This document shows positions 14,277 through 64,000 of a stretch of 64,000 nt of DNA, one piece after another (positions within the stretch are counted from its first letter, which is position 1; every line of letters starts with the position of its first letter). The stretch is taken from NCBI RefSeq assembly GCF_006345815.1, contig NZ_VCIG01000005.1:496001-560000 (forward strand), in the 5' to 3' direction. The notes under the pieces were generated by a model. The model had not been told where the DNA came from. It ran no database searches and saw only the letters and a list, made by a program, of their open reading frames with translations. A program made the position numbers and the translations under genes. This DNA is from Ochrobactrum sp. CGA5. Lineage in GTDB: Bacteria; Pseudomonadota; Alphaproteobacteria; Rhizobiales; Rhizobiaceae.

Positions 14277-14314
14277 GCATGCATATGATAGCTTATCGTA
14301 ACGCGCAAGTATTT

Positions 14315-15104: not shown

Positions 15105-15236
15105 TTGCTTTCAGACATTTAATTTTGTCTGTCCGCTCTATAGAACAGATCACTGTTTGATAGACAAAGTCCGCTGGTGTCTACTTCTATCGACCGCGGC
15201 ACAGATGAGGCTAGTGACCGCGGCATCATACAGTCT

Positions 15237-15279
15237 ACCCTCCGCATGGCATCAAGCAACTGGAGGCCATGCGGAGGGT
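15237..15279. repeat. Long inverted repeat (14-bp stem) in non-coding stretch
   Basis: ACCCTCCGCATGGC at 15237-15250 pairs perfectly with 15266-15279 across a 15-base loop. It lies downstream of the gntR gene and could end its transcript, although the T-run is poor. The rest of 15105-15426 shows no gene. Confidence 0.6.
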
Positions 15280-15426
15280 CTTCCCTGCGCCTTCTCCGGC
15301 ATTATATGATTTAGAGAATCGTTCCAACGCCGCCCTGCAACGCTATTACGGCTACAAACTCAGGAATTCTAACTCACCCGTGAGGACGCCACCCACGCAC
15401 AGTAATGACGTGTGAACCTAGACTAA

Positions 15427-15807
15427 CTATCGAAATGTATCAGCCCGATTTGACTGACTGGTCCCGCTTGGTGTGCTTTCAAGTTCCCTAGGAAGAGGCG
15501 CGCTTGAGCAACGCAGATGCATCTCGCGAACGAACGCCTTTCGTCGTTTCTCATCGTTCTCTTTTATTGCCGCCGCGATACCCAAGCCATATGGACCAAT
15601 GAGAAGTCCAGGGGCAAGATCGGAAACTTTTGTTTCTCTGGCCTCATAGTTAACAGCCTCGGCACGAATTTCTTCACACGGCAACGACTGCCACTTAACA
15701 TCACGTGTTGAAAGCGAAGCTGCATAATTCTGCGGAGATGTTGTGCATCCAAGCAAAAGCACTGACAGCAGGCAAACAACCCCTACTCCGAAACGCACCA
15801 CTACCAT
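15427..15807 (-). CDS. Small lipoprotein (126 aa)
   Basis: The frame read from the ATG at 15807 opens with a lipoprotein signal peptide: MVVVRFGVGVVCLLSVLLLG followed by Cys, giving the lipobox LLGC. After cleavage the mature protein of about 105 residues would be anchored by its acylated Cys. It holds two further cysteines (LPCEEI and LRCSS) and a mid-protein hydrophobic stretch GLLIGPYGLGIAAAI that resembles a glycine-zipper. No family name can be given. Longer in-frame starts would bury the signal peptide and are rejected. Confidence 0.75.
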   Translation of the reverse strand: MVVVRFGVGVVCLLSVLLLGCTTSPQNYAASLSTRDVKWQSLPCEEIRAEAVNYEARETKVSDLAPGLLIGPYGLGIAAAIKENDEKRRKAFVREMHLRCSSAPLPRELESTPSGTSQSNRADTFR

Positions 15808-15856
15808 TCTGTTCCGTTTCTCTCTACTACAAGCTTCACCTGTGCAAACCACCGCT

Positions 15857-16093
15857 CTAATCTGAACTGTTTTTATTGCCTGTGAGTATTGCATCTGCGG
15901 CCAGCCCACCTGCCATCCGGTATTCATCTGACCATTCTTCGTCATCAAATAAGCAAAGTGCTATTGTTGCGCATCGCTGCCTCTCCCGGAGGAGAGCCAG
16001 CGCGATCATATCAACAGGTTCATTTTTCTTCGATTCGGAGATTTCTAGCCACAAACTTCTGGCCGCGTCTTCGAGATCACGAGGAAATTCCAT
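15857..16093 (-). CDS. Hypothetical small protein (78 aa)
   Basis: A 78-residue acidic soluble protein, MEFPRDLEDAARSLWLE at the start, containing a helix-rich middle (DMIALALLRERQRCATIAL). GAGG lies upstream of the ATG at a workable distance. It ends 50 bases before the lipoprotein start on the same strand and may share its transcript. Unrecognised. Confidence 0.55.
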   Translation of the reverse strand: MEFPRDLEDAARSLWLEISESKKNEPVDMIALALLRERQRCATIALCLFDDEEWSDEYRMAGGLAADAILTGNKNSSD

Positions 16094-16313
16094 GCCGTTC
16101 GCCTCGTCACGTCGTTAAGGACACAATATTTTCAGCTCGTCGATTCACAAGCTCTTATCCGCTATTTCTATGGTTTCACAAATCGGCACGGCAGGCACTT
16201 CTCAACAATGCCACATTAAACGAAACTTTCTTTCGACAACGTCGTTTAAGGACAATGCCAATCCGTACGGATACAAATACTAATGGCCGATTTTAAGAAG
16301 AGCGAGGTAAGGC

Positions 16314-16475
16314 TTGAAGCCGGATTTATTCTTTAAGAGCATACTGGCTTTGTGCGCGGCTTTCCTTGTGGCTGCCATCATCGTCAGACTTTATCACGAG
16401 TATCACGACATTGATCCAACTTGGGGCAATATACGTTCGGGTGTGCACCCGGGCTGGGACACACCGGAGAATTAG
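16314..16475 (+). CDS. Small membrane protein (53 aa, TTG start)
   Basis: Frame starting with TTG right after GAGGTAAGGC, a good ribosome binding site. It encodes one membrane span near residues 7-24 (FFKSILALCAAFLVAAIIV) and a polar tail RLYHEYHDIDPTWGNIRSG ending PGWDTPEN. Its last four bases overlap the end of the convergent gene at 16472. No family recognised. Confidence 0.5.
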   Translation: MKPDLFFKSILALCAAFLVAAIIVRLYHEYHDIDPTWGNIRSGVHPGWDTPEN

Positions 16476-16996
16476 TTTCTAGAAGCTTCAGAAACCCTGC
16501 TTGCCCTGTAAGTCGGGCTTCCTGGGGCTGCAGCATCCACGTCAATGTGGATGTTTCTGATTTCGATGGACGGTTGCCCGACCGGAAAATCAACGATTTG
16601 TCCTGTATCGGGATTTTGCAAATCGGTTGCGGTATAACCGCGGATCTCGAAACGCATTCTGCCGTCGACAAGGCCCAAATAAACGATATCAAAAATCGTG
16701 CCGGACTCAGTAGGTTCATACTCATCAGGATTTGGCGTCTCCAAACCTTTAGCGTAGTCGCGTGGAGGGACAATAGGACTTCCACTCAGAATGAACTGCG
16801 TCTGTCCGAAGGTGCCTGTTGCTGGTGCAGGATGATGCGACGTCTCAGCGATCTCCATTGAAACCTCTGCGCCCCACGCTTCTTGCGCATGCAGGTCTGT
16901 AGAAAAAATCAGAGTACAGGATGCCGCCGAGAATATTGCGGGCACCGAATTGTACTCGCAAGCATAGTCATCGGCTGCTCCTTTTCCTGATAGCAA
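16472..16996 (-). CDS. Hypothetical, possibly exported protein (174 aa)
   Basis: Open frame of 174 residues. Near residue 20 there is a stretch (VPAIFSAASCTLIFSTDLHA) that resembles a signal peptide core with cleavage near HAQ, but it lacks a good basic N-terminus, so the true start may differ. The rest is soluble and beta-rich (GTIFDIVYLGLVDGRMRFEI, and IEIRNIHIDVDA), which suggests a small secreted beta-sandwich. No family recognised. It is alone between an unrelated small protein and cfa. Confidence 0.5.
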   Translation of the reverse strand: MLSGKGAADDYACEYNSVPAIFSAASCTLIFSTDLHAQEAWGAEVSMEIAETSHHPAPATGTFGQTQFILSGSPIVPPRDYAKGLETPNPDEYEPTESGTIFDIVYLGLVDGRMRFEIRGYTATDLQNPDTGQIVDFPVGQPSIEIRNIHIDVDAAAPGSPTYRASRVSEASRN

Positions 16997-17167
16997 GTCA
17001 ACGGGGTTGTTTTGACCTAAACGCGTTACGCATGCAATCCTGCATATTGAGTGTTTTTTCTATAGAACACATGCCGATGATTATCACGATTTTATGACTG
17101 CAATCATCAATACTTTAAGTTAGGGTCTATGCGTAAGGTTACCTGAAATCTCGATAGCGAGGCACTC

Positions 17168-18457
17168 ATGTCAGTTGAAGCCAAGTCCGTTCGCATTATC
17201 CGGACAGTCGTTGAAACACTGCGTCCTCAGTTCAACGTCGAGTTATGGGATGGTACTCGCTTCGGTGCGTTCGATGGTCCGTCACTGGTAATCAATGACC
17301 CGACGATTGTTCGTCAGCTGCTCATTAAGCCCAACTACGATTCCCTGATCGATATCTGGACATCCGGTCGTGTCGATATCCGCAATGGCACCATCTTCGA
17401 TCTCGCCAAAGCAAAAACCGACGGGAGTGTGAAGAACAGGTTGAAAGAGCTGCCAAAGTGGCAACTACTGAAGGATCTTCCAGCTCTTCTGTTCGCCGGA
17501 AAAGTCGATGCTCGCCCCGCCCTCAACGGCAAACAGCCTTTCGTTAGCGGGTCGAGCAAGGAAGCGATTACCCATCATTACGACGTATCCAACGAATTCT
17601 ACCGTTTATTTCTCGATGAAAGGATGGTTTATACTTGCGGTTACTTTACCGACTGGGCCAACGATATCAATCAGGCTCAAAGCGACAAGCTGGAACTCAT
17701 CTGCCGTAAACTGCGTTTGAAGTCCGGGGATCGCCTTCTGGATATAGGCTGTGGCTGGGGTGCGCTGCTGATCTATGCAGCGCAGAACTTTGGTGTTGTG
17801 GGCACCGGTGTTTCTCTGTCAGATGCGCAAACTGCGCTGGCCCGCGAAAAGATAAAACAGGCAGGACTTGAAGACAGGATTACCATCCACGTCAAATCCT
17901 ATACAGAACTAGACGGTCAGTTCGACAAGATTTCTTCTGTGGGAATGTTCGAGCATGTCGGAATCGCCAACTACGACAGCTATTTCAGTGCTGTGAATCG
18001 GCTTCTACGCCCCGGTGGGCTTTACATGCACCACGCAATCACACGGCGCATGAAGAAAGACAAGAAATCATTCAAACGTAAAAGCGCAGAGCATAAGGCG
18101 CTAGTGAAGTATATCTTCCCCGGTGGAGAACTCGATCATCTTGGAATGACCATAGAGAACCTAGAACGGTACGGTTTTGAGGTTCACGATGTCGAAAATC
18201 TACGGGAACATTATGGTCGCACTTGCCAGGTATGGTGTGAAAGACTTTATTCCAACTTCAACGAAGCCGTTTCAGAAGTCGGTTATCCGAAAGCGCGCCT
18301 CTGGCTGCTTTATCTTGCGGGATGTTCGCTGGCCTTTGAGAGAGGTACTGTCCAAATCAACCAAACGGTGGCGTCTAAACGCAAACGTGGCATTTCCGCT
18401 GCGCCGCAGACGAGAGCGGATATCTATGCCAGTTTCGGTGAACCTAGAAACGAATAA
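17168..18457 (+). CDS. cfa: Cyclopropane-fatty-acyl-phospholipid synthase
   Basis: SAM-dependent methyltransferase of 429 residues that adds a methylene bridge across double bonds of membrane phospholipid acyl chains. The SAM site LLDIGCGWGALLIYAA is near residue 195. The preceding motif HHYDVSNEFYRLFLDERMVY and YTCGYF are typical of Cfa enzymes, and the C-terminal half has GMFEHVG and GGLYMHHAI. The N-terminal 120 residues form the usual small lipid-facing domain. Monocistronic. An inverted repeat downstream may be its terminator. Confidence 0.92.
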   Translation: MSVEAKSVRIIRTVVETLRPQFNVELWDGTRFGAFDGPSLVINDPTIVRQLLIKPNYDSLIDIWTSGRVDIRNGTIFDLAKAKTDGSVKNRLKELPKWQLLKDLPALLFAGKVDARPALNGKQPFVSGSSKEAITHHYDVSNEFYRLFLDERMVYTCGYFTDWANDINQAQSDKLELICRKLRLKSGDRLLDIGCGWGALLIYAAQNFGVVGTGVSLSDAQTALAREKIKQAGLEDRITIHVKSYTELDGQFDKISSVGMFEHVGIANYDSYFSAVNRLLRPGGLYMHHAITRRMKKDKKSFKRKSAEHKALVKYIFPGGELDHLGMTIENLERYGFEVHDVENLREHYGRTCQVWCERLYSNFNEAVSEVGYPKARLWLLYLAGCSLAFERGTVQINQTVASKRKRGISAAPQTRADIYASFGEPRNE

Positions 18458-18649
18458 AGGCTGTTACGGCAGATAACTCGCCGTTAGCACAACCATCGTG
18501 TCAGAAAAAGCACCACCGTACCTGCCCAACCACAATCCGATAGTCCTACGTCCAACCTGCTGTGATTATCCGATTTCACGTATGTGGCGGTCTGGCAAGG
18601 TTTCGCTTTGAGCCAGCCTGCCCCGCTTTGGTACGCTTCGGTCGAGAAC

Positions 18650-18695
18650 GGCAGCAAGATTTGTAATCGATACGTGATTGCAATATCTTGCTGCC
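18650..18695 (+). terminator. Terminator-like hairpin after cfa
   Basis: GGCAGCAAGAT at 18650-18660 pairs with ATCTTGCTGCC at 18685-18695, followed by CTTTGTCATTTT. It sits between cfa and the convergent aldehyde dehydrogenase stop. Confidence 0.55.
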
Positions 18696-18705
18696 CTTTG
18701 TCATT

Positions 18706-20253
18706 TTATGCTTCGGGTGAATAACCGAACGTTACAGCCGGATTTTCAGCTGTCTCCACCCAGATACTCTTTGCTTGAGTATAAGACATCAATGCATCCT
18801 TGCCGCTGGAGCGGCCGTAGCCGCTGCGTCCGAAACCGCCAAACGGCGACATGACCGAAATGGTTTTATAACCATTGATCCAGAAGGTTCCGGCCCGCAC
18901 CTTCGCTGCCACACGATGCGCCCTCGCGACATTCTCAGTCCAGACCGCCCCGGCAAGTCCGTAGGGATTATCATTGGCGAGAGCAATTGCTTCTGCCTCG
19001 TCATCGAAAGGCATAACCGCAACAACCGGACCGAACACCTCCTCTCTGGCTATCGTCATTGCCGGGTCAACTCGATCAAGGATCGTCGGCGCATAGTAAT
19101 AACCCCCCGTTTCCTCTAGTGCTTCGGGTTTCTTTCCACCTGCCGCAAGCACCGCACCTTCGGCCACACCATCCCTAACCATCTGATCAATCTTCGTCCA
19201 TTGACGCGAATTGTTGATCGGTCCGATATGCGAATTATCGTCATAAGGATCGCCAACAACGATGCGATTGGCAGCGTCAACGTAGCGTTCCACAAACTCC
19301 TTATGGATGGACCGGTGAACCAGCAAGCGTGACCCGGAAACGCAACTCTGCCCCGCTCCGCTGAAGATAGCTGACTGCGCGCCGATGATCGCGCGATCTA
19401 TATTGGCATCGGGGAATACAATGTTGCCAGACTTTCCACCAAGCTCCAGAATGCACGGGACCACATTCTTTGCAGCAGTCGCCGCGATTGTTGATCCGGC
19501 CTGTGCCGACCCGACAAAAACGATCAAACCCGTATGCGGATGGGAAACGACAGCCTGTCCGGCAGTGGGACCACGCCCGGCAATCACGTTTACCAGTCCG
19601 CGCGGCGCACCGCCCTGCTCACACATCAGTCCAAGGATAAGGGTAGAAAGCGGCGTCAGCTCAGAAGGTTTGATGACAACGCCATTTCCAGCGCAGATTG
19701 CGGGTGCGATCTGCCATCCACCCGTAAAAAGCGGTGCGTTCCACGGCGTAATTTGGGCAACGACGCCGATCGGTTCATGTCGGGTATAGTTAAGATGACT
19801 GCTTGGTACGGGAATGACATCGCCATACAGCTTGTCGCACCAGCCAGCATAATACTCGAACATCTCTGCAACCCGGACCGCTTCACCGCGAATGTCGCGG
19901 ATGGGACGACCGGCGGAACGACTTTCGATTTCAGCGATCAACGCTGCGTTTTCACGGATACGCCTGGCGATCTCGTTCATCACGCGCCCACGGGCTGATG
20001 CTGTCAGTGCCATCCACTCTTTCTGAGCCTGAACAGCACTATCCATCGCTGCATCGACAATCGAACTATCGGCATCCTTGAACGAGGCAAAAACCCTACC
20101 AGTCGCCGGGTCCGTCAGGTTCTGTTCTTCACCGTTTCCTGCGACTATCTCGCCATTCACAAAACTGCCGATTTCCCGCTTAGGAAAGAAGTTCTCAAGA
20201 ATTTCAAAAATGCGCCCGGCTCGTTCTTTGGCATCAAGGGATTGATTCATCAT
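18706..20253 (-). CDS. NAD(P)-dependent aldehyde dehydrogenase
   Basis: Cytosolic ALDH superfamily enzyme, about 515 residues. Present: the general base region LELGGKSGNIVF (Glu), the nucleophile region GAGQSCVSGSRLL (Cys), ITPWNAPLF, and the C-terminal EEVFGPVVAVMPF and NPYGLAGAVWT. The ATG at 20253 follows AGGAGCCAG; a second ATG immediately after has an even better spacing. The gene begins just after the stop of the hydroxyacid dehydrogenase, so the two are co-transcribed and may act in sequence on one substrate. Substrate unknown; betaine-aldehyde, vanillin and semialdehyde enzymes all look like this. Confidence 0.9.
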   Translation of the reverse strand: MMNQSLDAKERAGRIFEILENFFPKREIGSFVNGEIVAGNGEEQNLTDPATGRVFASFKDADSSIVDAAMDSAVQAQKEWMALTASARGRVMNEIARRIRENAALIAEIESRSAGRPIRDIRGEAVRVAEMFEYYAGWCDKLYGDVIPVPSSHLNYTRHEPIGVVAQITPWNAPLFTGGWQIAPAICAGNGVVIKPSELTPLSTLILGLMCEQGGAPRGLVNVIAGRGPTAGQAVVSHPHTGLIVFVGSAQAGSTIAATAAKNVVPCILELGGKSGNIVFPDANIDRAIIGAQSAIFSGAGQSCVSGSRLLVHRSIHKEFVERYVDAANRIVVGDPYDDNSHIGPINNSRQWTKIDQMVRDGVAEGAVLAAGGKKPEALEETGGYYYAPTILDRVDPAMTIAREEVFGPVVAVMPFDDEAEAIALANDNPYGLAGAVWTENVARAHRVAAKVRAGTFWINGYKTISVMSPFGGFGRSGYGRSSGKDALMSYTQAKSIWVETAENPAVTFGYSPEA

Positions 20254-51753: not shown

Positions 51754-53784
51754 CTATACCGTTGCTCGGGTTTGTTCAGACCGCCGCTCGGTTGAAATAT
51801 TGGCAGCGCAGTCGAATGACTCGACCATAGCAGCGGCATGCGTTAGGTTGCGGATGTCACCAGGTGCGAGATTATGGCCCTCTTGCTTGAGACGTTCACT
51901 CCAAGACATAGCCTTGATCTCACCGGCTGACATATGGTCGGCGATTGGCCCAACTGACCCTACATCTTCCAGCCGACACAGCACCACGCAATCCCAAGAG
52001 ATGGAATTAGCTCTCTTGTGAAGCCCGCCACTGCTGTCGCCATACATCGGCCAAATCCGGACTGGGCGGATGTTTGACACGGCCAGTGCAGAAGCAAGCG
52101 ACTGCCAACCTCGCCCATCAAGGTTCTGGTAGGTGAAAACGATTCTGGCGGCAGGTTTGCAGGTCCGCCGAACCTCGACGAGTGCCTCTGCGAGGCTGTT
52201 ACCAAAAGTCTCCGCGGCGTCGAGCCCGTTGCCGGGTTTAGCGAGTTGTCCCGTAGGAAAGCCCTTGAGGTGCTCCGGGCCGACAATTCCGAGTTTGACC
52301 ATCCATGGCACAAAGAAGTGCCCTAGTTCCGAATATGCGATGTAGTTGAAGTACGGAGGATCGGTAAGGACAAGGTCGACCGACGCGTCAGCAATATGGG
52401 AAAGGTCGCGTGCGTCCTGACAACGAACGTCCCAACTGCCCTGCTCAAACCATCTCACTGCACGTGGTCCGTCGGTGATTGTGGGCTCTGTATCCTCACG
52501 CATCGCCTTTGCAGCCCGCTGCACGGCCCTTACGGCGTTAGGGAACGTACCCCTGCCGTTTTTCTCAAGCCAAGGATTGAGTTCCACAGGCCTCGCAATG
52601 TGACGGTAGGCGCGGATGGAGAACAGCCCGGTCAGACGACGCCAGCCACCAGCATATGCGCACAGCATATTGTTGGTCGTGAGGTGATCGGAAAACGCGA
52701 TCTTCATGGCCTCACCAACCATACCGTCAAGTCTGCCAATCTCCCGCGCCAGTAGGCCCAAGTGTAACTTTTGTCTCGCACCGAACAGGTCGCCGTAGTC
52801 CTCGTAGCCGTACTGGACGAGGCGATTGTCGCTTCGCCGTTCTTTGGGAATTGGCCCTGGTGCCAAAAAATCGGGGTCGCGCCGCAGCTCTGCCTGCAAC
52901 CTAACTTGTGCCGCCTCATAGACGGCAATATCCTTCGCGTTCGCCGCGCGGATCCGCCTATGGGTATTGGGGTACCTTTTCTCAACGCCAGCGGGAATGG
53001 TTTCAACGGCGAAAAGACGGAACCGGGGAGACCTGCCGGTGAATTTGGCAGTATCTATCAGCCGATCCCGTTGACCGCAGCACGGACAGATGGCAGTGCC
53101 ACGATCCAACCGGCCCGAGGTCGGCATGGTCTTCTGTCCACACGCGCAAACATGCCTTTTCCGGGTCATTGTGCGCTCTGTAACCTCTCCGCAATCATCG
53201 CAGATGATCCATTCGCGCTTGGCGTCGTCATTCCAGGCGAGGCGGAAGCTCGGATGAGCGTCAAACGTGTGATTACAACTAGAGCAAGTGTGTTGCTGGA
53301 CCCAAAAGGCGTGTAGAAGTGTCTCCTGCTGTCCCTGTGCATTGGTCGCTTTGTAGTAAGGGGCCAGTTCTGATCCGACTGCCTCCTTAAGTGCGTCGAG
53401 CGTCGAAGTTAGGTCGGGAAGTTTGCTGAGCCGCCCCTGGAAGTTCGATACCACAGCGGCTACGGGCTCGATATCAGTGCCGTTTATGTCAGCGCCCAAT
53501 CGCGATGCTTCTAGAAGCATCACGCCACCACCCATAAAAGGGTCAAGAACAGAAAGTCCCTCGCAGCTCGCCTCGTCGTAGTAGGCTGACCAGAAGTTCC
53601 TATCGGAAGGGGTTGCTGCGGCAACAGCGAGGGACCTAGCTGTGGCCGCGAGCCGGCGAGCGAACCACTTGTGAGACTGGTATGCCGGCCGCGGGCGTAC
53701 GCCCTCCCGTTTCGCGATCTGCGCAATCTCTCCTACTGGTAGGATACCGGCATCCAGCAATGACTGTTTTGGCAGAGTCGTCAT
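51754..53784 (-). CDS. DNA methyltransferase, DUF1156-like, with zinc-ribbon insert
   Basis: A 676-residue amino-methyltransferase expected to modify adenine or cytosine in DNA. The N-terminus RPAYQSHKWFARRLAATAR resembles the DUF1156 region. SAM motif I is LDPFMGGG (residues 80-87) and the catalytic motif IV TDPPY lies at 474-478. Between them, cysteine pairs at 167/170, 195/198, 213/215 and 233/235/236 suggest one or two zinc ribbons. Its ATG overlaps the stop of the nuclease-helicase gene by four bases (ATGA), so the two are made together. In a defence setting it would mark self DNA for the nuclease-helicase partner. No separate restriction subunit is seen. Confidence 0.85.
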   Translation of the reverse strand: MTTLPKQSLLDAGILPVGEIAQIAKREGVRPRPAYQSHKWFARRLAATARSLAVAAATPSDRNFWSAYYDEASCEGLSVLDPFMGGGVMLLEASRLGADINGTDIEPVAAVVSNFQGRLSKLPDLTSTLDALKEAVGSELAPYYKATNAQGQQETLLHAFWVQQHTCSSCNHTFDAHPSFRLAWNDDAKREWIICDDCGEVTERTMTRKRHVCACGQKTMPTSGRLDRGTAICPCCGQRDRLIDTAKFTGRSPRFRLFAVETIPAGVEKRYPNTHRRIRAANAKDIAVYEAAQVRLQAELRRDPDFLAPGPIPKERRSDNRLVQYGYEDYGDLFGARQKLHLGLLAREIGRLDGMVGEAMKIAFSDHLTTNNMLCAYAGGWRRLTGLFSIRAYRHIARPVELNPWLEKNGRGTFPNAVRAVQRAAKAMREDTEPTITDGPRAVRWFEQGSWDVRCQDARDLSHIADASVDLVLTDPPYFNYIAYSELGHFFVPWMVKLGIVGPEHLKGFPTGQLAKPGNGLDAAETFGNSLAEALVEVRRTCKPAARIVFTYQNLDGRGWQSLASALAVSNIRPVRIWPMYGDSSGGLHKRANSISWDCVVLCRLEDVGSVGPIADHMSAGEIKAMSWSERLKQEGHNLAPGDIRNLTHAAAMVESFDCAANISTERRSEQTRATV

Positions 53785-56700
53785 CGCACTCTCAACTCAC
53801 ACTCACCGAGATCCTCGAGCCCCGGCATCGAGAATACCGTTCCGGTACGCAAGAAACCATACACTAGGTGCTTCAGAAGCCGCGAATCTCTTAGCGCCTT
53901 GATGTCCTTGGGAAGATAGTCTGCCAGGCGACGACTAAGGACCACGACCATCTTGGCTTTAGCGCGGGAAACGATAACGTTGAAGCGATTAATATTATAA
54001 AGGAAATCCTCCTCGCTGGCGATCTGATCGCCGTCGCCGAGACCAAAGGAGGCGAACATCGCCACCTTCTCTTGCCCCTGAAAGCGCTCGACGGTGTCCA
54101 CCGAGCGGAAAAGCTCCTCAGCAGTCTCCGCATCAGGTTGCAGCGCCAACATAAGTGACTCTATGACTGCGGACTGCTGTGCCCGGTGGGGTGTGACGAT
54201 ACCGACGCCCTTCTTGAAGAAAGTCGTACCAACAAGAGGTTGGCCCGTTTCTGGATCAATCAGTCGTCCATACAATCCGGCGACGAGGGAGGCGACGAGC
54301 TTAGCTTCACCGTCATTGCGCTGGCTGCTGTACATGTCAGAATGGATCACGGCAGCGAGCGGGTGGTTTGGATCGAGTATCGCCGCAATCTGATCCGACC
54401 AAGGAAGCTCTGGGGGTACCGAGGCCGGTCGAGCGATTGGGACGGGCGTGGAAAGCAGCATCTGCTGATCGGGGAATTTCGACGTCAGGCCGGGATACCC
54501 GGCTATTGAGACGAACTCGATGATCTCTCTGTTTGATCGATAGCTGACATCTAGCATTGTGGGCGCGATGCAGCGGGAACTGCCATCCGGATTGGTCTGA
54601 CCTTGCCGATATTTGCAGAAGAAATCATAGATCGAGCCGACAACATTTTCGGCACCGATCGGTGGATCAATTGGGTGAATGGGTGCCATCTGTAGGTCGT
54701 CGCCAACCACGGTCACGTTAGCACCTTCAGCCAAGACGCTGAACGCTACGGAAGCATGAGCGACGTCCATCTGCGACGCTTCGTCGATCAACAAATAGTC
54801 GATGAAGGACTGAGGATCGTCCTTGTCGCGCAGCCGGCTCAGCTTGCCCAGTTGCTGGGCCGTTGCTCCGATTATGGTCGTACCGCCATTTTCGAGCCGA
54901 GACAGTAGTTCCTGTGCACTGACTTCCCGGACCTCGGTCGCGATGACAAACTCGCGAAGGATCGGATCTATTCCGACCTCGGAAGTGTCCGGTGACTTCA
55001 GTCGAGCAAACAGGATGTCTTGTCCTATAAGCCGTTCGGGCAACTTACGCATTACATTGTCGACGGCAACCCAGGTAGGGCCGGTGATAGCAATGCGGAT
55101 ACTTCGCCCCTCGCTGCGGGCCTGGGCGATCAGTGCCACAAGCAATGCTGCCGATGTCTCGCTCTTTCCAGTGCCGGGAGGCCCCCAAAGCAAGCTTAGC
55201 CGCCGTGTCAGGCCATTTTTGATCGCCGTCACCTGAGACGGATTTTTTCTGACCAGTGCCGGAAGCGTGCCGAGACCGACATTGACGTCCTTTTCGACAG
55301 GACGCGCAAGAATGTCCGCCTGCCAGATGAATGGGACGGCTGCATTGCCGGTTTCCTTGATACGAGGTGCCGCGCGCCCGGAGCGTATGACCCGCCTTGC
55401 ATCGATGAGCGGGTCGTCAATGGAAATCTGGGGCACACCGATCGTGCTCAGAGCTGGCCGCAACCGAGGTCCAACGAAATAATCAATGTGAAGCGGATCG
55501 ATAATGCCATATTGTACCTTTCCTGCGTCCACCTCAAACGTCAGGTCGAAAATTCCGTAATGGACCATGCGGTGAAGGATTTCATCGGCAGCGACAACCA
55601 CCACACGACGGACGCGGTCGAACCTGATTATCGAGATCTTGCAGGCTTTCCGTAACTTCTGGCGGAGACGCCAGTCGGGAATATGTTGTCTCATGTTCGG
55701 GAAGGTGTTTGCCAGCTTGGCGAGCGTCCAATGCTGCATGTGCAGACTGTCTTCGGGCATTAAAGACAGATTGAACTCCCCCTCCTTGACTTTGGCTTCA
55801 GTAGACCGTTCCGACATTTCGAAAACCCACACGGTATCATCCGAGACCAAGTCGCCAAGTCGTTGTCGCTGCAATTCCTGTTTTCTGGCGTCGTCTTCGA
55901 GGCGCCGAACAAGTCGGACGCTCTGGAAACGCGCCTCCCGCTCAAACGGCGGCGTAGCCATTAGCAGATCAACCTCTAATGTCTGGGCCGCATCCATCAA
56001 TCGAGCGTGCTGGTAGATGACCTGCAAGTCTTGAGCTACCGCAGACAGCCTGTCGCCGCCTCCAAACACCCGGTCTATTGAGGGGGCTTCGGCGGTCAGC
56101 TTGGTATCGTCGGCTTTTTCTAAGTCGTATCGGAGCCGGTTCACCACCGACAACGTCGCACCGAGGCGCTGGCGCACAACACGACGAAGCTCTTCCTGGA
56201 AGTCATCCGGTGTCTGGTCCTTAAACGGGCTCTTATTCCCGGCCCATACCTCATGACCGCGCTCGGAGGGAATCTGATCCGAGAGCGGATCGGCGAAGAA
56301 TGGATGCTGTCGATAGTCGAAGACCTTTCGGTCAGCTGCCACGGGTATGCGGTAGGCATTGGCGATGAAGCCTTGACTGTAGTGGTATGGTATGTCGGCA
56401 GCGAGCAATCGCACCATTTCGCTGACGATAGTTATTGGCGAGTTCCGCTCGACGTTTTCGGCCTCCTGCACTACCTCTTCGGGCGGAAATATCCAGGCCA
56501 TTGGTGAGAGGTCAGCCCCCCGCTTGTTCTTGTCCACGGGCGCGCTTCGGATCAACTCGAGATGACGCCCCATCATCCGGCAGAGTTGCTCGAAATTGAG
56601 CATGTCCCATAAGTAAAACTGGATTGAGGGCTTGTACTTGGCTTCGCCGGCGATCTCGTTCCGAGCGTTAGCTACCTGGTCGCGGAAGTCGAGTACCTTG

Positions 56701-58202
56701 TCGCGAAGGCGAGTGAGGAAATCAAGGAAAACCTCACCTTCGGCGCGGACGGTCTTGTCAGATACCAGTCGCGCTTGGTCCCAGCGCTCGAACTGGCCAT
56801 CTACAAGTACCTTGCCCCCTGCCGTCCGCACCACTTCCCCGGTTTTCGGATCGCGCCTGACCGACTTCGGGATAAAGGCTTCGATCTGGCAACCCAGAGC
56901 GAAACTGATCCCTGTTGAGACATCAAAGTCCGCCGAAAGGGCAACACGAACATCGCTGAAGCGTGGCATGATCGCCGAAGTACCCGTGCGGTCAGGCAGC
57001 CGCGCTTCCCCATGATTTTGAAGAGCACTAGCTCTCGCTTGAACTATATGTCGCGTCGCTCTTAGATTCTGGTGCGATTCGAACACGCGGCTGCCCGGCG
57101 ATAGGTTTGCCAAGTCATCGATCTTCTTGACGTCAGCGGATGAAAGCTTTCCGCTCGCGCCTTCCGAGAGGCCCGCGATACGGCTCAAGTGCTTCTCCCG
57201 CTCCGCCGTCGGCGAACAGTACCTTTGGTCGATGCTATCGAGTTCCTTGCCCGATCGAGTCCAAGGCAAGCCGAGATAGTCGCAGCCAATGCAACGGCTG
57301 CTGATATGCAGCGGCAGATCTCGCCAGTCGCTCAGGGAGATCACCTCGCGAAGGTCATGGGCTAAAAAGCGAACGACACGACCGAGCACGACCTCAGCTG
57401 GCATTTCTTCGAGATCCGTCTTGAATCGCTCATAGTATGCTGTCCTGTCCCGAACCAGTGAGCCGCGCCTAAGTTCTTCTGCTTCGAGTTGGCGAATGGC
57501 TGAACCCTCATGCGAACCAGGCCAAATAGCCGCGTCGGCCAGCACCACAAAATGGTCGGTGCGCTGGTTATCAATCAGCCATCCAGCAAGGGTCATGCCA
57601 TAGTAGGCTAGCTCGGCGAAATGGGCAGGAGATGGCTGTTCGGAAAGCTTGATGTCGATGATCCGCAAACCGATCCGAAGGTCTTCCGGGCCTATTTCGA
57701 CAACTCTGCCACCTGCATCAACAATACGCCTGGAACTCCCTGTCGGCGCCATCGATAAAAGAATGTCAGGTCGGTTCGAGCCGAAACTCAATGATACTTC
57801 CTGCCCGCCCGAAACTAGATCTGTGAGGCTGTGCTCCGCAACAAAGCTATCCGAGACCTCATACAAGACTTCGAATGCAAAATGCCCAGGTGTTCGTAAA
57901 TGCTCCAGCGCTGTTTCAAGCGGAAGGTCTTCGAATGCTTGCTCCTCCTCTCGCACATACGCCTTTGGAGAGCCATGTCGGACAGCATCGGTCCCGAAAA
58001 TGTCGGTGATCGTAAAGTAACACTCGCGCTCGTAGGTTCGCCCTTGGTCGGCAATAAGCTGCAACCCTGGGCGACCTGTGTCCTTTTCTGGGGCATCCGC
58101 ATGCCGACGCGCATCGGCTCCAGCATATAGATCGAGGCGAAGCCGACGGCGACATTCGCCACGTATATATTTGGAGATTGCCCCTTTTGATAAGCGATAC
58201 AC
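53781..58202 (-). CDS. RecB/Cas4-like nuclease fused to Dna2/Upf1-type SF1 helicase
   Basis: A 1473-residue protein. The N-terminal part looks like a PD-(D/E)XK nuclease of the RecB/Cas4/TM0106 type: Cys17 in RGECRRRLRLDLY, RPDILLS (Asp146), IIDIKLSEQ (Asp183, Lys185), AELAYYGMTLAGW, then Cys304, Cys307 and Cys329. Four such cysteines bind an Fe-S cluster in Cas4, AddB and Dna2. A long middle region (about 350-1000) is unrecognised. The C-terminal SF1B helicase has Walker A GPPGTGKS (1007-1014), Walker B IDEAS (from 1139), GDDLQMAP (1167), TVERFQGQEK (about 1370) and NRFNVIVSRAK (about 1405). The start is GTG with GAGGGG upstream. Overlaps the methyltransferase gene. Confidence 0.85.
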   Translation of the reverse strand: MYRLSKGAISKYIRGECRRRLRLDLYAGADARRHADAPEKDTGRPGLQLIADQGRTYERECYFTITDIFGTDAVRHGSPKAYVREEEQAFEDLPLETALEHLRTPGHFAFEVLYEVSDSFVAEHSLTDLVSGGQEVSLSFGSNRPDILLSMAPTGSSRRIVDAGGRVVEIGPEDLRIGLRIIDIKLSEQPSPAHFAELAYYGMTLAGWLIDNQRTDHFVVLADAAIWPGSHEGSAIRQLEAEELRRGSLVRDRTAYYERFKTDLEEMPAEVVLGRVVRFLAHDLREVISLSDWRDLPLHISSRCIGCDYLGLPWTRSGKELDSIDQRYCSPTAEREKHLSRIAGLSEGASGKLSSADVKKIDDLANLSPGSRVFESHQNLRATRHIVQARASALQNHGEARLPDRTGTSAIMPRFSDVRVALSADFDVSTGISFALGCQIEAFIPKSVRRDPKTGEVVRTAGGKVLVDGQFERWDQARLVSDKTVRAEGEVFLDFLTRLRDKVLDFRDQVANARNEIAGEAKYKPSIQFYLWDMLNFEQLCRMMGRHLELIRSAPVDKNKRGADLSPMAWIFPPEEVVQEAENVERNSPITIVSEMVRLLAADIPYHYSQGFIANAYRIPVAADRKVFDYRQHPFFADPLSDQIPSERGHEVWAGNKSPFKDQTPDDFQEELRRVVRQRLGATLSVVNRLRYDLEKADDTKLTAEAPSIDRVFGGGDRLSAVAQDLQVIYQHARLMDAAQTLEVDLLMATPPFEREARFQSVRLVRRLEDDARKQELQRQRLGDLVSDDTVWVFEMSERSTEAKVKEGEFNLSLMPEDSLHMQHWTLAKLANTFPNMRQHIPDWRLRQKLRKACKISIIRFDRVRRVVVVAADEILHRMVHYGIFDLTFEVDAGKVQYGIIDPLHIDYFVGPRLRPALSTIGVPQISIDDPLIDARRVIRSGRAAPRIKETGNAAVPFIWQADILARPVEKDVNVGLGTLPALVRKNPSQVTAIKNGLTRRLSLLWGPPGTGKSETSAALLVALIAQARSEGRSIRIAITGPTWVAVDNVMRKLPERLIGQDILFARLKSPDTSEVGIDPILREFVIATEVREVSAQELLSRLENGGTTIIGATAQQLGKLSRLRDKDDPQSFIDYLLIDEASQMDVAHASVAFSVLAEGANVTVVGDDLQMAPIHPIDPPIGAENVVGSIYDFFCKYRQGQTNPDGSSRCIAPTMLDVSYRSNREIIEFVSIAGYPGLTSKFPDQQMLLSTPVPIARPASVPPELPWSDQIAAILDPNHPLAAVIHSDMYSSQRNDGEAKLVASLVAGLYGRLIDPETGQPLVGTTFFKKGVGIVTPHRAQQSAVIESLMLALQPDAETAEELFRSVDTVERFQGQEKVAMFASFGLGDGDQIASEEDFLYNINRFNVIVSRAKAKMVVVLSRRLADYLPKDIKALRDSRLLKHLVYGFLRTGTVFSMPGLEDLGECELRVR

Positions 58203-58773
58203 CGGCTTCCCCTCTCAAGCGGCTATGGTATAAGAATAAAGTCCCTGCTGGTAACGTTCAAGGCAACCCCAGGAAACGTTGACGCACCAAATTCTTCTTG
58301 TGCTAGCTGGAGTGCTGGTCAAGACAACCTCCGCGTTCGAATCTCTTTGATTACTCTCGACATCAACATATTGTGCTGTGATCCATGAGTATAGGCGGCA
58401 AAATCGCATAATCGGCGGCGATATGGCGGCCGGAAGGCGATGAAATCGAGAATTACGTCGACTCCATAGCCCTCTAGATTGAGGCGCGAGCGAATAGCTT
58501 CGATGGGGTGGGAGCCCGTCAAGCATGCTCTAGGCTGCTGCATCGGGACAGCGGCCTGTCATCTGGCTTACGGCCCTCGTCGCCAACACAACTATATTTG
58601 TCGCAGGGAGGCTAGCTGAGCAGCAGCCAAAGTTAGATTGCCGATGTTCTGTGCTACGAGCTCAGTAGGTAGTTTCGTTGCGGAAATGTTCTGTCTTCTC
58701 TATACAGCAACAGAGACAGTGAATTCCACACAGATGATTGGTTCACCATCATTTCCGGTTTCGCGAGGGGCGA
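58203..58773. other. Divergent promoter region, no supported gene
   Basis: About 570 bases between the divergent nuclease-helicase and PIN genes. Several short frames exist but none has a start signal or a recognisable product. It should carry both promoters; its length leaves room for a small RNA or regulator site. Confidence 0.4.
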
Positions 58774-60459
58774 ATGGAGCATGTGTTTGTAGCCGATACG
58801 AATCTCTTCTTCGAGTGCATGCGCCTAGAAGAGCTTCCTTGGTCTGACCTGGCCGTAGACCCGGTTGTTATCGCATTGACCAAACCGGTTTTGGCGGAGA
58901 TCGACAAGCACAAGAATGGTGGCGGCAGAACGCGCAAGCGGGCAATCGAGATTTCGGGGCGCATACGTGGAATGCTTGCGGCTCTTCCGCCGGAAATCGT
59001 TATTCAGGAAGCCACACCACGCGTCCTACTCCGGCTGATGCCCATCGTCCAGCCCGCCCCCGAACTCGCCAGCTCACTTGACTACGGCATCAATGACGAC
59101 CGGATCGTCGGTACTGTCGCCACCCTTTCGAAGGATGAAACATTCGCCTCCGTCAAGTTGCTCACAGATGACAGTGTTGCGGCATCCACCGCACAGGGTC
59201 TTGGGGTTTCCTTCTTTCTGATCCCAGAGAGTTGGAAGCGACCGCCGGAACAGACAACCGAAGCAAAGCGCATCAGGGAGCTGGAAAAAGAAATATCGAT
59301 CTATAGATCGCAGGAGCCTGTCATTAGCATCGCGAACGCCTCAGACAAGGCAGCTTCTGCTAATGTGGTTCGCCGAGTCGCTTTGGCACTTGAGCCCACC
59401 GAAATTGACCGACTGATCGACAAACTAAAAGTGTGTCACCCCCCAACGGAGGATTTCGCTGCTCCGAAACCCGAGATTCAGGCCGATGGAACCGAAATTT
59501 CCTACGAGGCGCCGGATGCTGAAGCGATCGGGAAATACTCTTCGGAAGCCTACCCAAAATGGATCGACGCCTGCCGCTCAATCTTTGAATCGCTGCATAA
59601 GGGCCGCGTCGAACCCGAGGCCAAAGTGGCTCTAACATTTGGGGTTGCCAACGGTGGAACGCGACCGGCCTTGAAGATGCGCGTGTCGTTTGAGGCTGTC
59701 GGCAACATCGATTTGAGACGTGACGCAGATGATTCAGTTGATCACGAGGATCGAAATGACGACGACGGGCAACCCGAACTTCCTCCGATTCCTAGGCTGC
59801 CCGCACCGCCTATTGCGCCAGCGGTTCGACGCATCGTGAAACGGTCGCCTTCTGCGGCGAAAGGCGTTGACATCGCTACACTGAGAATGCCCGGCAGTGG
59901 TCTGAGGATCTCTGAGCTGGAGAAGGCTTCGCGCGGAGTGATGAGCGGTCTCGGTCCCCAAATGGCGGCAATGCGTAGCGCCCAGTCGATGTTTGACAAC
60001 CTTCACGCCAGAGGAGCGCTCGCTGACCTAGCGCGTGGCATAGGGCCAATGTCGGACTTCATGAAAATGGCAGAGGAGCATGACCGCCTGCATAGATCGC
60101 TTATTCAACCCACCGGCATTGCTAGGCCAACATATATCGATGACCCAGCTTTCCGTATGCCGTTGATGCCGGAGAAGCACGATCCGGAGGGATTTTACTA
60201 CGATCGGTGGCCAAAAGGGAAGCCGACCAAGCGTGGCGCTCTGACTTGTGATCTGTTCCGCCATCAGCGCGGAGAGGAGTTTTTCGAGATCGAGGTACTG
60301 TTTCCTGACGATGGAGACGTCACTGGCGCAGTGCGGTGTACAGTCGAAGCCGAAAACCTCACTAAACCGGTGGAGCTCCTGATCCCTCTCAGCAGAAAGA
60401 TTGAAGCCTACAATCTCATGGTGATCGCGGATGAGATGGTCGAACACTGCGGCCGCTAG
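58774..60459 (+). CDS. PIN-domain protein with long C-terminal region
   Basis: A 561-residue protein. The N-terminal 150 residues form a PIN-type nuclease domain: MEHVFVADTNLFFECM (first Asp), TKPVLAEIDKHK (Glu), LDYGINDDRIVGTVATL (Asp pair) and KLLTDDSVAASTAQG (last Asp), i.e. a full acidic set for metal-dependent RNase activity. A coiled segment (AKRIRELEKEISIYRS) follows, then an unrecognised region with a proline-rich link near residue 355 and a conserved-looking C-terminus (YYDRWPKGKPTKRGA). The ATG at 58774 follows GAGGGG; a TTG 12 codons upstream lacks a site. Divergent from the nuclease-helicase, convergent with the UvrD-like gene. No paired antitoxin gene is present. Confidence 0.8.
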   Translation: MEHVFVADTNLFFECMRLEELPWSDLAVDPVVIALTKPVLAEIDKHKNGGGRTRKRAIEISGRIRGMLAALPPEIVIQEATPRVLLRLMPIVQPAPELASSLDYGINDDRIVGTVATLSKDETFASVKLLTDDSVAASTAQGLGVSFFLIPESWKRPPEQTTEAKRIRELEKEISIYRSQEPVISIANASDKAASANVVRRVALALEPTEIDRLIDKLKVCHPPTEDFAAPKPEIQADGTEISYEAPDAEAIGKYSSEAYPKWIDACRSIFESLHKGRVEPEAKVALTFGVANGGTRPALKMRVSFEAVGNIDLRRDADDSVDHEDRNDDDGQPELPPIPRLPAPPIAPAVRRIVKRSPSAAKGVDIATLRMPGSGLRISELEKASRGVMSGLGPQMAAMRSAQSMFDNLHARGALADLARGIGPMSDFMKMAEEHDRLHRSLIQPTGIARPTYIDDPAFRMPLMPEKHDPEGFYYDRWPKGKPTKRGALTCDLFRHQRGEEFFEIEVLFPDDGDVTGAVRCTVEAENLTKPVELLIPLSRKIEAYNLMVIADEMVEHCGR

Positions 60460-60575: not shown

Positions 60576-62384
60576 TCATTCACCTCCGAGGCGCTCCTGT
60601 ACTTCTGTCACGAAGCGCGACGGGTTGTGCTGCCCATACATGAGATGGATCTCATATCGCGCACGCGTGAAGCCGACATAGAAGAGGCGTCGGGCCTCAC
60701 GGACGTCGTTCTCGCCGGCATTATTACGCGGCAATCGGCCTTCCTCCGCGCCGAACATGATCACCACATCGAATTCGCGCCCCTTGGCGCTATGTAGCGT
60801 CGAAAGATTGAGACGATCGAGGCCACTCCCGATTCCAGCGAACTCACCTAACGGAAAATCATCGACATCGCCAGCTGGACCGATACGCGCGAGAAAGTCG
60901 GTTAGTGTGCCATATTCATCAGCGAGTGATCGGGCGAGATCGACTCGCGGACGGATGATGTCTTCGCGCAGTGCGGCCAGCCAGTCGTGGAGGCTGAGCG
61001 TCTCGTCCCGCCAATCCCATAATGCTGCGGTGAGGTCACGCTGGAAGGTAAGCCGCTCATCCTCATCTGTTATGGTTTCATGGAATAGCCTGGTCCCTTC
61101 GCTTACTACACGAGACAGCCGAGGTATGCCTGATCGCCACCCCCCGCAGCACCACACTGCGCATTGCTCCAGCCATCGCATCAACCTGCTGCCGCGCGGA
61201 TACAGCGCGTTGCCATCGGTCCGTATGACGGAATAGCCATATTCTGCAGCCGCATTTGCGACTTCATCACCGAGGAACGCCGCAGAATACAGCACAGCGA
61301 TCTCGCCGAGATTGGTGTCGGGCCGACGCTCGCGGATCTCCGGGATCAACTCCTCGACAAGATATCGTGCGTGCCCGGTATAGCCCCCAGTGCAGGGGTG
61401 AAAATAGATCGTTCCTTCGTGGGCACCGTCGGGCGCCTTGTAGCCTCGGTTCTCTCCGAGCGCATATTCGGACGCACTGACGATCCGCGAGCCGCAGCGA
61501 TAGTTGAGACCTAGTCGCACCGTCTCGACATCATCGCGCGCGGAAAGACGTCGCAGCAACTCTGGAGTTGCGCCGGTAAAGCCATAGATCGACTGATCAA
61601 CGTCGCCGACCGCGAACAATCTCATGCCCGCGCTGAAGCAGAGGCCCATGACCATACCGTGCAACGCACGGCCCAAGTCCTGATACTCGTCGACGGCTAG
61701 GATTGGATATTTAGCCACCATCGCTGTTCTAAGCCACTTGTTGGCGGCAAGGGCGCGCACCGCGAGGAGCGGCATGTCGTCAAAATCTATCAGCTGGCGT
61801 GCGCGAAGTTCGGCTTCGTACGTCTCGACGAGTTCGGTAAGCTGCGGATCGAGAGTTCTCCACTCCGGCAGCTCGCGATTAAGGAACCGTCGCCGATGAC
61901 GGCCGAGCCTCATGTCCCAGTTCTGGAGGTTCTCCGGTCCACCTATGACTTTCGCATGAGCGGCGGCCAATGCGGCTCGACTCTGCTGCCGTGTCGCTAC
62001 CGTGAATTCATCGGGTAGGCCCAGCCCGGCCACTTTGGCGTAAGGCAGCAGAATTTGTGTGAGAGAAAATGAGTGAACGGTTCCGATAAACACGCGTCCG
62101 CCCGGTGCGACGCCGAGCGTTTCCAAGCGGCTTTCGAGCTCGCGTGCACATTCGTTATTGTAGGTGATACAAGCAATACCGCGTGGCTCGTCCACATCCT
62201 CGCTGAGCATTCTGGCGAGTTTGACCGTCAGCGTCTTGGTTTTGCCACTGCCAGGCCCAGCCAGCAACACGCAATGCCCGGTCGATTCATAAGCTTGCCA
62301 TTGCTTCTCATTGGGACGCAGGTCTTCGGCCGCCTTGAGATAGAGAGCCCGGTTAGACGAGATCGATGACATGATTGATCGCAT
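60576..62384 (-). CDS. UvrD/PcrA-like SF1A helicase, GajB-like
   Basis: About 602 residues with all SF1A motifs: Walker A LLAGPGSGKTKTL (near 42), GTVHSFSL, Walker B LAVDEYQDLG, motif III FAVGDVDQSIYGFTGA, LGLNYRCGSRI, motif V LSTLHSAKGREFDVVI and motif VI FYVGFTRARYEI. It overlaps the 3' end of the OLD nuclease gene by about 30 bases (starts at 62390 TTG, 62384 ATG or 62372 ATG are possible). A UvrD-like helicase coupled to a class 2 OLD nuclease is the make-up of the Gabija anti-phage system, in which GajB is thought to sense or process DNA ends made in infection. Confidence 0.85.
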   Translation of the reverse strand: MRSIMSSISSNRALYLKAAEDLRPNEKQWQAYESTGHCVLLAGPGSGKTKTLTVKLARMLSEDVDEPRGIACITYNNECARELESRLETLGVAPGGRVFIGTVHSFSLTQILLPYAKVAGLGLPDEFTVATRQQSRAALAAAHAKVIGGPENLQNWDMRLGRHRRRFLNRELPEWRTLDPQLTELVETYEAELRARQLIDFDDMPLLAVRALAANKWLRTAMVAKYPILAVDEYQDLGRALHGMVMGLCFSAGMRLFAVGDVDQSIYGFTGATPELLRRLSARDDVETVRLGLNYRCGSRIVSASEYALGENRGYKAPDGAHEGTIYFHPCTGGYTGHARYLVEELIPEIRERRPDTNLGEIAVLYSAAFLGDEVANAAAEYGYSVIRTDGNALYPRGSRLMRWLEQCAVWCCGGWRSGIPRLSRVVSEGTRLFHETITDEDERLTFQRDLTAALWDWRDETLSLHDWLAALREDIIRPRVDLARSLADEYGTLTDFLARIGPAGDVDDFPLGEFAGIGSGLDRLNLSTLHSAKGREFDVVIMFGAEEGRLPRNNAGENDVREARRLFYVGFTRARYEIHLMYGQHNPSRFVTEVQERLGGE

Positions 62385-64000
62385 CCGCAATATAGTCGGG
62401 TACGAGCTTTCCGGCTGCGCGCGTTGCCAATCTTTGCGCGAAGCGGCCCTTGCCCATCTGCTCGATCATATTGAGCAGTTCGTTAGCATCGAAATCCTTC
62501 GGCTTCGCTTTCCACGCGTTGAGGATCGCCTTACGCTCAGCACTAAAGTTGTGCTCGTGGAGGGTCTCTATCATCTCTTGGGCATAGTCGCCTTCGAACA
62601 ATTCAGTTTCCAGCGTGCTCCAATTCACGAAAATGCCGAACTTTCGAATTTCAGCGAATGTCTCGCCCCAGGTTTCTTTGTCTTTGATCGATTTGATAAC
62701 CGCGTTAGTGTCGTCACCGCCAGCGGCCACGTCAATGATCCGAACGAGCTTGAGCGCCCGATTGTAGGCGCGAGGTTTCTCGTCGACTTCATCATAATCG
62801 GTGATGACAGAGAACGGGATACCCAGAGCACAGAGCAGCTTCACATAGGGAAGGAAGTTGGTCCCGGAGACCGAGCACACTGACACGCCATGCTCGTCGA
62901 GCGAGATGTCCATATTCTTAGCAAAAGCCGGGATCAGAAACCGCTCCGCGTCACCTTCGACGAGGATAACGCCGCGTGCGAAGACCATCTCCGCGCGAGT
63001 GACATCGAGATATCGTTCGAGATCTTCGGTGTCGGCTTTGGTGAAGCCGGCTTCGGCAGTCGAATATCCCTTCGTTCCCTCCTCCACGTGCGACCGAAGA
63101 AGCAGGAGAGACCCTAGCGGCGCGACACTTGCAATATGCGGCGAGTGGGTGGTCAAAATGACCGAAAGCGGCCCGGTAGCCTCCCCGTCATCATTGTCAT
63201 CGACACCGTGTTCGCCATCAACGATCGTCTCAAACAGATGCTTATAGACTAGGCGCTGGAGGTGTGGATGGAGGTGCGCCTCTGGCTCCTCGATCGCGAG
63301 CAATGACTGGTCGCGCTTGTTGGCAGTTATCAATCGCTGAAGATCAAGCAGTTTGAGCGTGAGAAAGATGAGATTTGCCGAACCTAGGCTGGCGTCGGCA
63401 ACGCCGCGCCGCCCCTCATCTATAAGAAGCCGGATCTGACGATTGATCCGCGTGGCGTCGGTCGCGCTGAATCCAAGTGAGGGATGCACATCCTGCTTCG
63501 ACCCCGCCATTGCCACAAACAGCTCTGTGATGCTGGCTTCGAGCTCCTTCACCTCGTTGAAGTCAATCGCCGCAGCGCTTGCCTCCGCGATCTTGTCTCC
63601 GATTTCTTTGAGCGCTTCCTTGTCGATGCCGATGAACGCATCCTCTACGAGCGGACGAAGTGGCGACCGGCGCCAAGCGGCAAGATCCCCCTCGGCGTCC
63701 CGAAGCGCCGGCAAAAGATCCATTGTGATGCGGCGCCGAAGATCGTGGCCAAAGCGCTTAGCTTCATCCTCACCGCCGAAGCAGACGAATGAGAAATCGT
63801 CGTCACTAGCAGGGGCGTGATCGAGGCCAGGCTGAGCACGCAGTTGATAGGTAAGGCGGACTGTCTCCGGGTCGTAATCGAGGCGGTAGTCGGTCAGCAC
63901 CGCCAGGACATCGAGGTCTTGCTCGAAATCCTTGATCTCCACCGCGATGGTGATGGTCGTCTCGGCGGTTATCTCCTCCAGCCCATCCCAAAAGTCGGCG
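62353..64000 (-). CDS. Class 2 OLD-family ATPase/Toprim nuclease, GajA-like (partial)
   Basis: At least 548 residues are in the window; the frame runs open through 64000, so the N-terminus with Walker A is missing. A GTG at 63942 is internal. Visible are the ABC-ATPase Walker B LLAIEEPEAHLHPHLQ, the switch His ILTTHSPHIAS, then the Toprim domain: VILVEGDAERFLIPAF (Glu) and SVITDYDEVDE (DxD). Class 2 OLD proteins are defined by a following UvrD-like helicase, as here. In Gabija GajA is a sequence-specific nickase held off by ATP. The product would be cytosolic and oligomeric. Confidence 0.87.
   Translation of the reverse strand, partial: ADFWDGLEEITAETTITIAVEIKDFEQDLDVLAVLTDYRLDYDPETVRLTYQLRAQPGLDHAPASDDDFSFVCFGGEDEAKRFGHDLRRRITMDLLPALRDAEGDLAAWRRSPLRPLVEDAFIGIDKEALKEIGDKIAEASAAAIDFNEVKELEASITELFVAMAGSKQDVHPSLGFSATDATRINRQIRLLIDEGRRGVADASLGSANLIFLTLKLLDLQRLITANKRDQSLLAIEEPEAHLHPHLQRLVYKHLFETIVDGEHGVDDNDDGEATGPLSVILTTHSPHIASVAPLGSLLLLRSHVEEGTKGYSTAEAGFTKADTEDLERYLDVTRAEMVFARGVILVEGDAERFLIPAFAKNMDISLDEHGVSVCSVSGTNFLPYVKLLCALGIPFSVITDYDEVDEKPRAYNRALKLVRIIDVAAGGDDTNAVIKSIKDKETWGETFAEIRKFGIFVNWSTLETELFEGDYAQEMIETLHEHNFSAERKAILNAWKAKPKDFDANELLNMIEQMGKGRFAQRLATRAAGKLVPDYIADAINHVIDLV

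Follow-up and report, generated by a model that had tools for sequence, protein, structure and literature searches.

The window, a stretch of 64,000 nucleotides, comes from a 4.6-Mb genome and carries two intact genes, encoding a DNA methyltransferase (MTase) and a nuclease-helicase (NH), which share the ATGA overlap described in the original prediction, as confirmed from the ORF list. The features of the two genes and of their neighbours at higher coordinates are as follows.

51754..53784, minus strand: type-A DNA methyltransferase gene, 676 aa (ORF; ATGA overlap with NH; PHROG)
52351..52362, minus strand: catalytic DPPY, MTase residues 475-478
53077..53286, minus strand: zinc-ribbon pairs, MTase residues 167-236 (eight Cys invariant in 7/7 type-A MTases)
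53781..58202, minus strand: NH gene, 1473 aa, GTG start (ORF; Pfam AAA_11/AAA_12; relatives)
53847..55244, minus strand: SF1B (UPF1/Dna2-like) helicase, NH residues 987-1452 (Pfam, PDB profile, PADLOC)
55245..57002, minus strand: family-specific middle region, NH residues 401-986 (common to the ~770-aa Dpd-island protein by HHalign)
57003..57200, minus strand: helix-hairpin-helix type domain, NH residues 335-400 (VIA-align)
57201..58202, minus strand: iron-sulphur (Cas4/AddB/Dna2-type) PD-(D/E)XK nuclease, NH residues 1-334 (conserved residues, model and fold match)
58771-60459: PIN_4-domain protein, 562 aa, between the NH-MTase pair and Gabija (Pfam)
60576-64000 and L003:1353-3194: complete Gabija pair, GajA 613 aa and GajB 604 aa

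NH has seven full-length relatives, with 26-46% identity. It had been described as a RecB/Cas4-type nuclease with four cysteines and catalytic Asp and Lys, fused to an SF1B helicase, and this description held in both parts. A model and fold match was found for residues 1-334, so that the N-terminus does have a nuclease fold, and C17, D146, D183, K185, Y201, C304, C307 and C329 are invariant in 36/36 aligned rows (35 for D183; L079 and L008, which have no N-terminus, are left out of the active-site counts). The RecB-type fold, the D-(D/E)XK residues and the four spaced cysteines together place NH among the iron-sulphur nucleases of the Cas4/AddB/Dna2 kind; a PDB profile search with the nuclease region alone gave no match. 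Residues ~335-400 matched the NusA AR2 and RadA/Rad51 N-terminal domains in VIA-align, and the helicase matched NAM7/UPF1, SMUBP2 and DNA2 in the PDB profile search.

The window MTase matches the DNA methyltransferase family phrog_10183 (E-value = 3.7e-68). Its DPPY motif, which we take to indicate adenine N6 as the target, makes methylation at that position likely. The protein had been called a DUF1156-like MTase with zinc ribbons; the zinc ribbons are present. Membership in the DUF1156 systems (Hma, DUF1156_antiphage) was rejected, since no full-length match at the curated score was reached (54.7 of 1000 bits for DUF1156_antiphage, and 49 bits over short stretches for HmaB, among the best 25 of 45 families).

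As had been anticipated, the two genes do not both match a named defence system: neither reached one in profile searches against PADLOC or NCBIfam. Type I restriction-modification, with its SF2 HsdR translocase, HsdM and HsdS, was rejected because NH is an SF1 protein (AAA_11/AAA_12); no REase_I was found among the ten PADLOC matches of NH, and no Pfam HsdR or HsdS on either protein at an E-value of 0.1. Type III systems (Mod-Res) resemble the pair in being made of two genes, an MTase and a helicase-nuclease. However, Res is an SF2 ATPase, whereas NH combines an SF1B helicase with a Cas4-type nuclease; there was no REase_III among the ten PADLOC matches, and Pfam ResIII appeared only at an E-value of 0.088, so this type was rejected too. 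Mokosh was rejected as well, since MkoA and MkoC match only residues 999-1426 of the NH helicase (best E-value = 6.6e-22), with no full-length match. According to the available portion of a Cas4 survey, UvrD-Cas4-like fusions occur in Type III restriction-modification or Dcm-Vsr contexts; they likewise join a Cas4-like nuclease to an SF1 helicase in defence loci, but the helicase there is UvrD-like (3'-5'), whereas that of NH is UPF1/Dna2-like (PMC5704561).

Relatives were sought by NH similarity in plasmids, viral contigs (IMG/VR), species genomes and whole-genome samples. Without repeats, the NH clade has at least 25 members including the window. Among the matches listed, their partners are seven type-A MTases (long, with zinc ribbons), 14 of type B (~370 aa, SPPY) and three of type C (upstream, N6_N4-type), and one member has no MTase; Pfam kinds were assigned for ten of the clade MTases. 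NH proteins of the clade are 1399-1528 aa long, their Walker A lysine lies between residues 933 and 1050, and the named hosts include Bradyrhizobium, Rhizobium leguminosarum, Chromobacterium alticapitis, Chloroflexi, Pyrinomonadaceae and gammaproteobacterial MAGs. L017, L018, L024, L074, L075, L116 and L117 were removed before counting as contigs of L021, L081 and L122 as a contig of L022, and L082 as a contig of L023. Also removed were L110-L113, L115 and L124, which show loci counted already from their MTase side, and the duplicates L141-L149 and L153 (L144 is the contig of L114). L114, found via its MTase, L150-L152 and most partial plasmid matches fall outside the counts, and all that L109 contains of NH is an ORF of 129 aa from the N-terminal end of the nuclease. 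A single-protein scan of viral sequences found nothing. The distribution of NH is sporadic: among 385 genomes sampled from the class it was present in its own alone, three other full-length members were found in an order sample of 297 genomes, and there was no other full-length match among 100 relatives. A core repair gene is thereby rejected, and the pair is not one found mainly in core DNA-repair loci, an outcome that the original prediction had named as speaking against it.

Conserved adjacency of the two genes, which the original prediction had named as support for it, was borne out by the count: the MTase gene lies directly beside NH in 24 of the 25 clade members among the matches listed, with gaps of -28 to +216 nt. 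In one neighbour test, an MTase was recognized at 23/24 paired loci by HMM and 24/24 by motif, and at control helicase loci, among the matches listed, at 0/39 by HMM and 1/39 by motif (P-value = 2.4e-15 on motifs, Fisher test, the unpaired L008 counted as a miss). The 24 paired loci are 23 clade loci without the window plus the distant L036, with L008 not among them, and the 39 controls are all listed species-genome loci outside the paired set; an ORF was absent on one side at 9/39 controls and 2/24 paired loci. Since the HMMs (types A-C) derive from MTases of the family itself, counting by motif is fairer. Chance adjacency is rejected on this comparison, and the effector gene is linked to a DNA MTase as in restriction-modification systems generally. 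Relative to NH, type-A MTase genes lie downstream at four loci and upstream at three, type-B genes are convergent at 13/14 loci, and type-C genes lie upstream at 3/3. The exception, L008 on the Methylorubrum extorquens AM1 megaplasmid, is among the matches listed the sole clade member without an MTase and also the sole one with a broken NH frame, which may be a sequencing error; in 24 kb of this locus, one of 100 ORFs of at least 100 aa has an MTase-like motif, in a 158-aa reading. At L101:528-2895, two adjoining type-B-like MTase ORFs were observed next to a single nuclease-helicase.

Nhi is a stand-alone helicase-nuclease defence, and NH might likewise act alone, as Nhi or Hna, with the neighbouring MTase only marking or regulating the locus. 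This would agree with the outgroup loci L030, L031, L032, L102 and L108 (ORF motifs) and L073 (annotation), which have no adjacent MTase. We regard it as highly improbable, as the long clade keeps its MTase almost throughout and is set apart by residue 197, which is E in 23/23 of its rows that bear the N-terminus and Q in 13/13 other rows. Because of these two features together, the MTase-paired clade is distinct. Residue 197 falls in what we take to be the Q-x3-Y motif of RecB-family nucleases, which reads E-x3-Y in the paired clade.

Reciprocal searches started from the MTases. By similarity to type-B MTases 28 viral loci were obtained, of which 16 match most of the MTase, the remaining 12 being short partial matches that were not counted. 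NH lies beside the MTase at 10 of the 16 (including the near-identical contigs L116 and L117), and none was seen in the fetched flanks of the other six, two of which are at contig ends. The search with type-A MTases yielded no more than two loci, both viral: L138, the contig of L019, and L139, which is cut by a contig end with no NH seen there. MTases without the effector do exist, and the effector, in this sample, almost always has an MTase. The six loci fit the expectation if the MTase is harmless alone. At two of them (L120:5253-6572 and L121:5931-7238), the type-B-like MTase is followed by a GmrSD_N (DUF262) protein, which places this kind of MTase beside a different effector. Type-B MTases without NH, two of them beside GmrSD_N, nevertheless count against a restriction-modification reading of the pair.

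Two loci outside the clade are reported apart. In L036, from Fibrella aquatilis, NH is followed downstream by an MTase of the D12 (Dam-like) kind, and no adjacent MTase was detected in its sister row L102; this split also counts against the restriction-modification reading. Pairing of the L036 type was sought in 241 genomes of its order and did not recur. The MTase of L036 matches PD-Lambda-5_B (E-value = 4.3e-71), a system reported by Vassallo et al. (2022; PMC9519451, available in part), whereas PD-Lambda-5_A matched 0/9 of the nuclease-helicases scanned.

The two proteins also vary together, as their identity matrices are correlated both for type A (n = 7, r = 0.966, P-value = 0.0021, Mantel test) and for type B (n = 13, r = 0.929, P-value = 0.0001, Mantel test). 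A quick ML tree was built from the nuclease and middle region of 37 rows (midpoint root, no bootstrap, flagged long branches); in it, a group of 24 rows with an SH-aLRT of 100 comprised types A, B and C together with L008. These are 24 of the 25 clade members; L079, without its N-terminus, was placed by similarity and is outside both the tree and the Mantel test. The labels of all rows need six changes on the tree, where the least possible is five and the shuffled mean is 21.3. Three MTase kinds with differing gene order occur within one clade, and a fourth, Dam-like kind occurs at a more distant relative. Sliding identity over seven close pairs revealed local dips, for instance to 25-42% in 40-column windows of NH (L021 against L009 or L010) and to 37-47% in the MTase (L010/L021 and L027/L104).

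The surroundings of the window pair were also inspected. The PIN_4-domain protein had no match in PADLOC or NCBIfam scans. At higher coordinates, GajB (E-value = 2.3e-246) and the in-window part of GajA (E-value = 2.7e-203) were identified by PADLOC, and the GajA ORF starts ~190 bases past the window end. Beyond Gabija follow a DUF6119 gene and then CagX/VirB9- and TrbI-type conjugation genes, so the window pair lies in a defence island next to conjugation genes. The 459-aa DUF6119 ORF (L003:3601-6727) matches its profile only over positions 1-355 of 524, and it overlaps the CagX/VirB9-type ORF, with TrbI next; its appearance is that of a truncated gene bordering a conjugation operon. Over window positions 1-20000, the plasmids that cover most of the query (12-20%) come from Shinella, Rhizobium and Sinorhizobium, with 76-79% identity.

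Ten neighbour proteins of the relatives, picked by eye and thus no census, were scanned against PADLOC at an E-value of 1e-10. Seven had matches, namely a dGTPase (L009), a Type II/III MTase (L076), a Type III REase (L026), a Type I REase (L105), PglZ (L029), the candidate PDC-S05 (L103) and PtuA of Septu (L010), and three had none. With PglZ, the Type III REase, the Type II/III MTase and, in the window, Gabija so close by, NH might serve the systems next to it (BREX, Type III restriction-modification, Gabija) as an accessory effector, its MTase being theirs; we consider this rather improbable, since the scanned neighbours vary by locus and the NH-MTase pair is constant. A somewhat better, although still unlikely, alternative is that the pair serves mobile elements, the MTase protecting a plasmid or prophage against restriction by the host and NH aiding the recombination or replication of that element. 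Members on plasmids and in IMG/VR viral contigs, and the position of L077 near a PHROG tail gene, would agree with it. Against this stand the near-obligate pairing, the co-variation, the several MTase kinds and the defence neighbours, and the contigs of L026 and L027 have no obvious phage genes by eye. At L077:15101-17311 a type-B pair was noted near the phage tail gene, and similar ORFs were seen by eye in L029, L076 and L079; on the other side of such pairs is PglZ (L029) or the Type II/III MTase (L076). Such a position may be one where prophages carry defence genes as cargo.

The closest precedent is Bad of Geobacillus, a Dna2-like helicase-nuclease beside a Type III-like MTase, for which Wilkinson et al. 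(2020) suggested a role as a novel restriction enzyme (PMC7430649; statements on Bad follow the available parts of that paper). Like NH, Bad fuses an iron-sulphur nuclease to an SF1B helicase, and in vitro it has the activities expected of NH. Bad differs in being 1245 aa long (D150, K815), shorter than the proteins of the window clade; compared by residue spacing alone, it is closer to the short stand-alone rows L031 and L108 than to the long MTase-paired clade. The window MTase is also of another kind than the Type III-like neighbour of Bad. Among the open-licence PubMed Central papers listed in searches, none was seen to name the window pair, its range of MTases or the link to Dpd described below. 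The pair had been proposed as a candidate undescribed module. No named system was matched, but as Bad beside an MTase was reported with a similar suggestion in 2020, novelty is limited (PMC7430649).

A second relationship leads to the Dpd (7-deazaguanine) islands. The best PADLOC match of NH is DpdJ (E-value = 9.8e-37), over the helicase part only (residues 987-1452). In Dpd islands, a separate gene precedes DpdJ:

L012:7530-9854, L071:14992-17307 and L072:5004-7292: ~770-aa gene with iron-sulphur nuclease residues, before DpdJ with SF1 helicase at its front

Six such ~770-aa proteins aligned with the window family at an HHalign probability of 100 (E-value = 5.5e-40) over 735 columns, which correspond to the nuclease and middle region; PADLOC gave no match for the two that were scanned. 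In Methylobacterium sp. XJLW, a 774-aa gene is followed by DpdJ (E-value = 0), in an island that holds DpdA, DpdB, DpdF, DpdH and Que genes. DpdA, DpdB and QueE lie near the two genes in Skermanella, and DpdB, QueC and QueE in Caulobacter. The same nuclease and long-helicase ORFs occur in Azospirillum (L011) and in genomes L106 and L107, known here from these ORFs alone. NH is thus homologous both to the ~770-aa gene and to the SF1 helicase part of the long DpdJ. In the Dpd islands, however, the engine is split over two genes, DpdJ also has a YprA-like SF2 part, and DNA is marked by a 7-deazaguanine base instead of a methyl group (PMC12458937, in its available part). Dpd proper was rejected for the window pair, as no DpdA lies beside it; in its own genome the DpdA model had one weak match on another contig (E-value = 3.9e-4, 19.7 bits), and control genomes such as E. 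coli match too. Through the homology of the ~770-aa protein to these parts of NH, namely the nuclease and middle region, an engine akin to NH is seen to occur with a mark of another chemistry.

The near-obligate pairing, the co-variation of NH and MTase, the several MTase kinds in one clade, the conserved catalytic residues and the Dpd homology are the basis on which we judge the window pair to be probably a two-protein restriction-modification-like system with a Dna2-like effector. The original prediction of a two-gene, methylation-guarded defence is thereby well supported by comparison, with the controls and the defence neighbours also in its favour; that it is wholly undescribed does not stand. 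We infer that the MTase protects self and NH destroys unmodified DNA. The MTase would mark a site on the cell's own DNA, read either by the MTase itself or by the middle region of NH, and absence of the mark would license the motor nuclease. The role of restriction effector would fall to NH, whose 5'-to-3' SF1B motor and iron-sulphur nuclease would unwind and cut DNA without the mark. Dna2-like enzymes act on single strands, which makes an attack on intact double-stranded foreign DNA harder to explain and counts against this reading. Free ends or replication forks of the foreign DNA may be the entry points, and NH may load onto foreign DNA that is entering or replicating, at its ends, nicks or flaps, in the way that Bad does in vitro (PMC7430649, available parts).

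More tentatively, and with somewhat less than even confidence, we suggest that restriction-modification has a further, distinct class. Its single engine of Cas4/Dna2-type nuclease, shared middle domain and SF1B helicase would react to absence of the mark in a manner that tolerates swapped marking enzymes; the class would include at least three, perhaps four, MTase kinds and a split form with 7-deazaguanine insertion. If the restriction-modification-like reading is true, a Dna2/Cas4-type motor nuclease joins the known restriction effectors, and bacterial Dna2-like enzymes, whose cellular role was left open in the available text of the 2020 Bad paper (PMC7430649), gain one. The job of the ~770-aa nuclease gene in Dpd islands would be hinted at, and a single destruction module would be recombinable with chemically different self-marks.
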